Positions 1-7,455 of a stretch of DNA of 64,000 bases are shown one piece after another; position 1 is the first letter of the stretch; the number at the start of each line of letters is the position of its first letter. The translations under genes were made by a program, and so were the position numbers. The notes beneath the pieces are model-generated. The model was not told where the DNA came from. It was given only the letters and a program-made list of their open reading frames with translations, and searched no databases. This DNA comes from a bacterium BMS3Bbin13. Lineage in GTDB: Bacteria; Pseudomonadota; Gammaproteobacteria; 21-64-14. Location of the stretch: the NCBI GenBank assembly GCA_002897735.1, contig BDTW01000042.1, forward strand, positions 1 through 64,000. The letters run 5' to 3'.

Positions 1-3000
1 CGGGGGCGGCGATGAAGGTGCGTTCGTTGGTGCTGTTGGAGATATCCCGAAACACCACCGGCGAGCCGGAGCGTGAATCGTGGCGCAGGTTCTTCGCCGC
101 GAGCAGAAAGTCAGGGTCGAGGTCCAGGCGGCCCGGAACGTCGTGTTCGATCGGCGCGGCGGCCCAGTTGTTCAAGTAGATCATTTTCCCTTGATACAGC
201 GGCAGCGCCACATCCTCGACCCGCTCCTCCCGCACCCACGCATCTACCTCCCGCGACAGGATGAAACCCTCCGGAATATCTGCCCGCGGAATCGGCAGTG
301 TGCCATAAGGCGGCTGGGCGCAGCGGCGTTCGCCTTCGGGCAGCGGCTTGACGCCCAGCTCTGCCCACAGCTCCCCAATCGGCCGCCAGTCGCCCTTGAG
401 CCAGCGGCTGTACTCGTCGGGGCGATAGCCCTGGGCCTCCCACTTGGGGCGTGGTGGGAAGAGCTTGGAATCGTTGGTCATGTGAAATTCTGTGGCGTAC
501 TTGATGCCCCAGCCGTCGGGGCCGTCATCGCCGAGGAGCACGGAGTTGGCGTAGATCTTCTCGAGGATCTCGAGGTCGCGGGCCGACTGGATCTCGAGGA
601 TGGCCTTGGAGCGCGGGCTGAAGCGCTCGACGCGCTCGCGGGTGTAGGGCGTCGCCAGGGTTTCGGCGTGCTCCCAGTCCTCGAGCTTGCGGCGCATGAA
701 GGCGGTGCGGATGGCCGCGGTCTTGCCGCCCTTCTCGATGATGACGGGGTTGAATTTGAAGGAGCGGTGGATATCGAAGATCTTCTCCCGGTTCTCGAAG
801 CCGAAGAGCCACTCCCAGCGGCAGTGGTCGAGGAAGAGTTCGCGCAATGCGCCGGTGCCGTGATCGGAGTAGAGCCCCGAAGGCACGATGAAACCCATAC
901 GGCCGTCGTCACGCAGCAGTGCATGGGCCTGCTCGAGGAAGAGCTTGTAGAGATTGATGTCGGCGGAGCCCTGGTGGCGGAAGGGGTGGCGCGGGTCGGC
1001 GTAGCCGTTCTCTGAGACGCGCGCATTGCGCCACACGTCGTGCAAAATCCGGTTCTGACGGTCGTGCGCGAGGGCGAAGCGGTCCTGTGACTTTTCGGCT
1101 ACTTGCGGATCTCCACAGGGATTGGCGGCGTACTTGAGCAGATTCGACTGGGCGCGGAAGTCGGCGTTGTAGTCCAGCCAGGCGCGTTCCACCTCCTGGT
1201 CCGCGAAGATCGCGGTCTGCTTGCGCAACGCCTCCTGTTTGCCGTAGGAGCGATAGAGCGGGTCGATGTTGGAGAAGAACTCCTTGGAGTTCGGCTTGGC
1301 GATCTCCCAGGGTGGGTTCCCCAGGACGGCGTGGAAGCCCGCGCTTGGACCCTGGAACACATCCGGGAACTCGATCTCCCAGTGGAAGAAGCGCTTCGTG
1401 CGCGCCAACTCCTCCGTCACGGCGCGGGTTTCGTCCGAGGGGCTCGCGAAGCTCGCCGGCAGCGGTGCGCAGTCGAGCCGGTCGGCGGGCCAGAACCAGC
1501 AGGCGCACCAACGGTCGAAGGCCGCCTTCAACTCTCGCCAGGATGCGGAACCGAGCAGGCGCTCGCGGTAGAGCCGGGCGCGCTCCGCCGCATCGACGAC
1601 CGGAAGCGCGTGCAGCGCCTCCAGCACGGCGAGGGCCTCGTCGTGGACTTGCGAAGGTGGAAGCCCCACCCATGCATAGGGAATCAAGTGGGAGGCGAGG
1701 TCCGGCGTGAGCGTGCCCTTCACGAAGGCCTTGATCGCCTTGGTGCGCGCGTCCTTCGCGAAGTGCACGCCGTTGCTGTGCCCTTTGTCGCCACCCTCGC
1801 GGTTCTTCCAGGCCATGGCCGGGTAGTGCTGGAACTGGTCGAACCAGGCGCCGACCAGCGCGTTGCCGCACTTGACCTTGTGGTCTAGGAACGAGAAGGG
1901 CAGCGTGCGGTCCATGGTCTCGATCCACAGCGCCAAGCGGCACAGCTCGACGGCCAGCGGGTCGAGGTCGACGCCGTAGATGCAGCGTTCCACCACGTGG
2001 CGGCGCAGCACCGCCTTGAGGCGCGGCTCGAAGAGCGGGTCGTCGGGGCGGCAGGGCAAGCGCTCCTCGCAGAGCCGTTCCGCTGCCCCTTCTTTCGGAC
2101 CCGCTCCGGTCAGGAGCGCCACCAGGCCGCAGTCGCCTTGCTTGTGTATGCGGTCGTGGTAGTGGAGCGAGGCGTAGAGGCCGTCGGTCAAGAAGCGCAG
2201 CGCCGCTACCGGGAAGGTTCCCGAGCCGCAGGCGGGGTCTACCACCTTGAGGGCCAGGATCTGCTCGGGTTTCTTGGGCGTCCACTGCGCGGGCAGGGCG
2301 TCGCGGTCGGGGGTGCCATCGGGACCGGTAGGTGGATCCCAGGCCAACGGGCGCAAGGTGCGCTGCACCGTGGGCACGGCCAGGCCGGGGCGGGTGTAGA
2401 AGGTGCCCGAGCCCTTGCGCGTGCCGCCCCAGCGCACCAGATACCACTCGCCGGGGAGAACGACGCGCGTTACGAGCTGGCGGGCCTTGCGGGCGATGGC
2501 TTGTTCGTAAACGAGCTTCCTCTCCGGTGTCATGGGGCCGCGGGGCTTGCGGGCCAGGCCGCCGACCGCCACGGCGCGGCGCGCCCAGGTCTCGGCCCGG
2601 GTGCGCGTGATGTGGCGCTCGTCTTCCGCCTCTTCCTCTTCTCCGTCTCCATCCGCTTCGGGCTCATCCTCGGCGGGCGCTTCGTCTTCTTCGCCGCCTT
2701 CGGAGACGGTGCCCTCGGCCTCGCTTGCCGCCTCGCCCGGCTCCTCTACCCCTTCCCCGGCGTCCCCCTCGTCGCCGCTACTCGCGACCTTCATCTCCTC
2801 GAGCAGGTCCTTGAGCGCCTTGTCATCCATCGCCTCGAGGCGCGAGAGCGGCAAGGCCGGCTGGTCGCCCACGGCGAGGAAGATCACCGGGTCTCCGGCG
2901 GGCGCGGTCTTGAGCTCGAAGTCGAGCAGGCCCTCGTAAAGGATGCCGATGTATTCGCTCGACAGATCGGAGAAGTCCACCGGCGCGGGCACCCAAGTGC

Positions 3001-7200: not shown

Positions 7201-7455
7201 GTCGAAGTCCTCGCCGGTCATGGAATCCGAGGCGGTGACATTGGGCAGCGCGACCGGCTCAAGCAGCTGGCTGTGCGGCTCAAGTTCCCAGAGGAGTTGC
7301 TCCTCGTGGGGCAATTGGTCGTCTTTGTACTCGAGGTGGACGAGGTGCAAACGACCGGCGTCCCCGTCGAAAGGCTCCACGGCCGAGACGACGCCACGCC
7401 GGTTTCGGACCGTAGCGAACATGCCTATACGCGGAATTGCGGCTCCAATGGTCAC
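4204..7455 (-). CDS. drmD: SNF2-family helicase, DISARM DrmD-like
   Basis: 1083 aa; Walker [16 protein letters not shown], DECHN box, C-terminal helicase motif [41 protein letters not shown]; N-terminal [14 protein letters not shown]; directly followed by a giant adenine methylase, as in class 1 DISARM. Confidence 0.8.
   Translation of the reverse strand: [1083 protein letters not shown]

Follow-up and report, generated by a model that had tools for sequence, protein, structure and literature searches.

A helicase-methylase pair sister to class 1 DISARM genes as the probable front of an ARMADA-kind antiphage operon in bacterium BMS3Bbin13

Two genes at the left edge of the 64,000-nucleotide window analysed here, which is the beginning of contig BDTW01000042.1 (C42) of bacterium BMS3Bbin13, are probably the first two of the three genes of an ARMADA-kind antiphage operon, and the lineage is one in which this front pair is sister to drmD-drmMI of class 1 DISARM; we put the probability of this reading at roughly 0.78. 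Such an operon would consist of armA for an SNF2 helicase, armB for a methylase, an optional gene block, and armC for a fused YprA/DruE-like helicase that ends in a Vsr-like nuclease. The gene content and order, the intact ATPase and methylase motifs, and the trees given below were observed directly, and we infer that armC is encoded in this genome.

The helicase-methylase pair

ARMADA systems combine a BrxHII-like helicase, a PglX-like methylase and a YprA helicase (Bell et al. 2025, preprint, PMC12458937). As listed in Table 1, the window contains a BrxHII/RapA-like SNF2 helicase and PglX-like methylase pair of the ARMADA type. The helicase has SNF2-rel_dom and Helicase_C domains with RapA as its top PDB match, and the methylase carries an Eco57I domain (PF07669, 81.6 bits). 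The helicase motifs DVGLGKT, DECH and a further stretch of 11 residues (not shown), as well as the methylase motifs DPACGSGTF and NPPW, are kept throughout the clade of orthologues. A preliminary description of this DNA had reported an SNF2 helicase of this length with an ATGA overlap into an Eco57I-type methylase of more than 1400 codons, and the open reading frames, the domains and the ATGA junction were all seen here. The methylase frame has no stop codon up to the window edge and, since the window starts at base 1 of the contig, the gene is cut by the assembly and not by the window alone; its C-terminus is short by about 300 residues compared to intact orthologues (mostly 1640-1850 aa).

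Table 1. Features of the helicase-methylase pair and its flank in the window, and genes found in inserts of related loci
Feature	Location	Strand	Remarks
SNF2 helicase, DrmD/ArmA-like	4204..7455	-	1083 aa, GTG start, helicase motifs intact; from domains, DrmD model and tree
Eco57I/PglX-like adenine methylase, DrmMI/ArmB-like	1..4207 (ORF 2-4207)	-	at least 1402 codons, 3' end off contig
tRNA-Val(TAC) 3' half	8050..8096	+	anticodon arm to CCA; proposed right-hand island attachment site
AbiE pairs	insert of L002, L032		
Old	insert of L017		
Drt1a	insert of L007, L026		
TmtA	insert of L008		
HamB/PDC-M23B helicase	insert of L006		
Macro and FRG domains	insert of L016, L023		

Profile models alone would favour the earlier reading of the pair as the start of a class 1 DISARM system, because the helicase passes the curated cut-off of the NCBIfam DrmD model (NF038317, 675.4 bits against 610), while ArmA proteins score 298-350 bits (350 for E. 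coli ARMADA II and 298 for Nocardioides ARMADA I); a true class 1 DrmD scores 1241. With the PADLOC models, the helicase matched DrmD at 666 bits, and the methylase matched REase_MTase_IIG (PDLC03622) best, at 1153 bits, with DrmMI at 411. Best matches to a BREX/Pgl or stand-alone type IIG family had been named beforehand as evidence against DISARM, and this was borne out by half, with type IIG as the top PADLOC model of the methylase. The BREX PglX models of NCBIfam reached 24-28 bits against curated cut-offs of 500-900. The strong match to a DrmA model found in the bin turned out to be the helicase of the window.

The gene downstream of the methylase in relatives

Because the window edge is also the contig end, the prediction that drmA, drmB and drmC follow the pair was judged from relatives. 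A methylase scan of 84,980 species genomes yielded 72 loci, including about 36 orthologues at 39-90% identity, and the gene downstream was counted in the 21 orthologous loci with continuing contigs (L002-L004, L006-L009, L011, L012, L014, L016, L017, L021, L023, L026, L027, L030 and L032-L035; 39-76% identity, nine phyla); L038 was excluded since its methylase and YprA are both fragmentary. The results show that the helicase precedes the methylase in every relative where the contig permits, and that a fused YprA/DruE-like helicase, co-directional with the methylase, lies downstream of it in 21/21 loci, at a spacing of 12 bp (L003) to 16.7 kb (L008). This protein has 1.8-2.1 kaa where complete; matches to the PADLOC DruE model and MZB were checked on YprA of L002 and L030, and the other loci were assigned by profile. 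The same helicase-methylase-YprA order was found on a Synechocystis plasmid. In contrast, DrmA, DrmB and DrmC queries from three DISARM loci had no match in any clade locus. As a positive control, the same queries recovered the corresponding genes of four further DISARM loci. The expected drmA, split drmB (DUF1998) and drmC (PLD) are thus absent from all 21 orthologous loci, which have a single fused helicase instead, an outcome named beforehand as refuting the DISARM reading; in the window's own genome the corresponding part is unassembled. The DISARM reading is supported for the front two genes, which are closest to drmD-drmMI by the DrmD model score and by tree, and is not supported for drmA-drmB-drmC.

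YprA was not found in the genome of the nearest relative, SZUA-115, which is in short contigs and whose methylase contig runs just 2.5 kb further. In the nearest relative's locus (L015, 3945-6425), a gene for an OLD-like ATPase overlaps the methylase stop and is broken after about 230 codons, and a 587-aa gene of unknown kind, on the reverse strand, comes after it. The only congener lacks the helicase-methylase pair, and a search of same-class genomes for close relatives gave distant methylases only.

No insert separates the methylase from the YprA gene in L003, L014 and L030. Inserts of 1.8-16.7 kb were seen in L002, L004, L006-L009, L011, L012, L016, L017, L023, L026, L027, L032 and L033, and many of the insert genes are of defence type (Table 1). 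In L029, TmtA comes directly after the methylase and YprA sits on a separate contig. The class 1 DISARM loci L126 and L141 have inserts at the same spot.

A profile built from the clade YprA proteins scored 292-564 bits with ARMADA I, 286-511 bits with Druantia and 318-351 bits with ARMADA II, compared to 5-18 bits with DISARM DrmA/B, and the YprA proteins of the clade and of archaeal ARMADA I align over their whole length. Its C-terminal motif TTPD...YLDG...HGN is mostly invariant within the clade, and we take it to be of Vsr type, an assignment made by eye. A domain predicted to be helical follows RecA1, where the BrxA-like domain of ARMADA and Druantia is expected (pLDDT of the block about 62-92). 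Models of the C-terminal nuclease and of the RecA1 insert, which are of low to moderate confidence, gave no significant PDB match and confirmed neither the nuclease nor the BrxA-like fold. Past the Vsr-like part, the YprA proteins of L002 (17168-23098), L003, L016 and L032 end in a Peptidase_S24/LexA-like domain (GxSMEPxxPxG), which was seen by Pfam and falls in a part of the AlphaFold model with pLDDT below 50. This end could act as a switch that senses damage or cleaves itself; S24, LexA and a peptidase do not come up in the main text of PMC12458937, the preprint on ARMADA.

A tRNA-Val island and the assembly gap

Next to the pair, a tRNA-Val is represented by its 3' half (Table 1), and the 5' half is not in the window; ARAGORN reported no complete tRNA at 8050-8096. 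At the same place, the congener (G001) has lon, hupB, an intact tRNA-Val, tRNA-Asp and ppiD, which represents the empty site (gene names in the congener were read off translations, and the ppiD domains in the window were found by Pfam). Since the window has only the 3' half of tRNA-Val, while the congener has an intact tRNA-Val and no pair, the pair is probably part of the cargo of a tRNA-Val island, at its right end, with a proposed junction in the anticodon arm. Integration at tRNA genes is also described for E. coli ARMADA islands (PMC12458937).

The contig of this bin that carries lon (C25) stops inside that gene, at base 134070, and besides the 3' ends of lon and of the methylase, the gap between the two contigs should hold hupB, the complete tRNA-Val and the left part of the island. 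The bin gave no match to MZB, to a whole YprA or the profile of YprA, or to the C-terminus of the methylase. The whole gap is missing, because the 3' ends of the methylase and of lon are both absent from the bin, as is any complete tRNA-Val(TAC) of this kind; with C25 stopping inside lon and the surrounding gap unassembled, the absence of YprA from the bin is therefore uninformative.

An intact tRNA-Asp is present at 8108-8184. At a distance of 13.5 kb, 50 bases of its 3' part are repeated without mismatch (8137-8186 = 21654-21703), and ppiD comes next, as it does at the congener's empty site. This arrangement marks a second, complete island (tRNA-Asp), in tandem with the tRNA-Val island. Its cargo (8665-20745) comprises a YgjP-like metallopeptidase, HsdR, a Schlafen/AlbA-type protein, KwaB and KwaA (Kiwa), a zeta-toxin-like ATPase, HsdS and HsdM, so that Kiwa and other genes lie inside one type I restriction system, between hsdR and hsdS/hsdM. 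No integrase was recognised in this cargo.

Relationship to ARMADA, DISARM and Druantia

For comparison, seven class 1 DISARM, eight ARMADA I-like and six ARMADA II-like loci plus Druantia were used as references; the ARMADA types were assigned here by gene order and content as given in the preprint and are not the preprint's own labels. The ARMADA I-like sample includes archaeal, cyanobacterial (Planktothrix) and Thermus loci. In the unrooted helicase tree, the clade groups with all seven class 1 DISARM DrmD proteins against ARMADA I and II (support 100/100), and the unrooted methylase tree gives the same division (99/97). AU tests rejected joining the clade to ARMADA I (p 0.013 for the helicase and 0.008 for the methylase) and to ARMADA II (p 0.015 and 0.025). 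The position of the helicase as sister of class 1 DISARM DrmD explains why it passes the DrmD model. In contrast, the YprA tree, also unrooted, places the clade as a monophyletic group inside the ARMADA/Druantia branch (100/100), far from DrmA-DrmB. For YprA, the AU tests left the place of the clade among ARMADA I, ARMADA II and Druantia undecided and rejected none of the three groupings (p 0.29-0.49, with 0.43 for ARMADA I). The DISARM branch joins nearest the clade in this tree, without firm support (79/76). Taken together, the trees and the YprA profile (286-564 versus 5-18 bits) argue for an ARMADA-like lineage of its own, the front pair of which is of the DISARM type.

Like ARMADA I and II, this lineage has a helicase, a PglX-like methylase and, in the clade relatives, a fused YprA with a C-terminal Vsr-like motif, in the gene order of type II and of some type I systems; the latter, with the order helicase-methylase-YprA, occur in archaea and cyanobacteria (PMC12458937). 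It differs from both types in the grouping of its helicase and methylase with class 1 DISARM, and also in the inserts between methylase and YprA, which are common in the clade, and in the S24/LexA-like end of some YprA proteins. Type II further has armD, a UvrD-like RelE-UvrD fusion after armC, a full-length homologue of which was found in L034 alone among clade loci. There, a UvrD helicase gene after YprA (21563-23668) encodes a protein 31-35% identical to ARMADA II ArmD over its length. The lineage shares with Druantia a DruE-like YprA helicase, encoded by the third gene in the relatives and matched by PADLOC DruE models, but pairs it with a helicase and a methylase, unlike the DruH or DruA-D / DruM-F-G sets.

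A genuine class 1 DISARM system, drmD-drmMI-drmA-drmB-drmC, of which drmA, drmB and drmC would lie beyond the contig end, would account for the DrmD score, the sister position of both front genes, their identical order and their tight coupling. It is nevertheless very improbable given drmA, drmB and drmC in 0/21 orthologous loci and a fused ARMADA/Druantia-type YprA in 21/21. In addition, the helicase is only about 35% identical to true DISARM DrmD, chiefly across the helicase core, versus 92-93% to that of SZUA-115, and the methylase is 67-69% identical to those of L002-L004. The absence of YprA from both the bin and the SZUA-115 genome, together with the type IIG model as the top PADLOC match of the methylase, would instead suit a two-gene orphan, in which the helicase and a type IIG-like methylase act as a stand-alone restriction-modification unit after loss of armC in the sub-lineage. 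We consider such a loss quite unlikely, since the bin misses the whole gap and SZUA-115 is in short contigs, and since YprA is found in every relative with enough sequence; unlike in type IIG systems, the methylase is coupled to an SNF2 helicase wherever the contig permits and to YprA where the sequence continues.

The gene order, the YprA AU result for ARMADA I and the end-to-end alignment with archaeal YprA would also fit an ordinary ARMADA type I system, of the order seen in archaea and cyanobacteria and without a separate lineage. This appears unlikely because the helicase and methylase trees reject the sampled ARMADA I and favour class 1 DISARM, and the archaeal, Planktothrix and Thermus loci that were sampled fall elsewhere. 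A separate ARMADA-like lineage thus remains the preferred reading. Tentatively, it could represent a third ARMADA type, with an unsplit YprA effector and a DISARM-type front pair, forming a step between ARMADA and class 1 DISARM; DISARM would then have gained drmD-drmMI from this lineage and grafted them onto a drmA-drmB-drmC core. Alternatively, since the trees are unrooted, all of these genes may descend together, with DrmAB fast-evolving. A mosaic by recombination as the sole reading is weakened by the position of the DISARM branch, nearest the clade, in the YprA tree.

E. coli ARMADA II, the sole type tested, gives broad, non-abortive protection for which all four genes are required (PMC12458937). 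By analogy with that system, ArmB would mark host DNA by N6-adenine methylation, and ArmA, as a translocase, together with ArmC, as a helicase-nuclease, would engage unmarked incoming or replicating phage DNA. The engaged DNA would be destroyed or blocked, with cleavage by the Vsr-like domain and without killing of the cell.

These results have consequences for how such loci are read. Annotation pipelines will label the helicase as DISARM DrmD and count the locus as a DISARM system with genes missing, which for this lineage is wrong in the decisive part. With front genes that are sister to those of DISARM and an effector of ARMADA/Druantia type, a single kind of front pair seems to work with two different effectors, and the origin of the helicase-methylase pair of class 1 DISARM becomes testable through this lineage. 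The clade also places ARMADA-like systems in many phyla for which metagenomes are the main source, including Acidobacteriota, Gemmatimonadota, Planctomycetota, Myxococcota, Nitrospirota and others.
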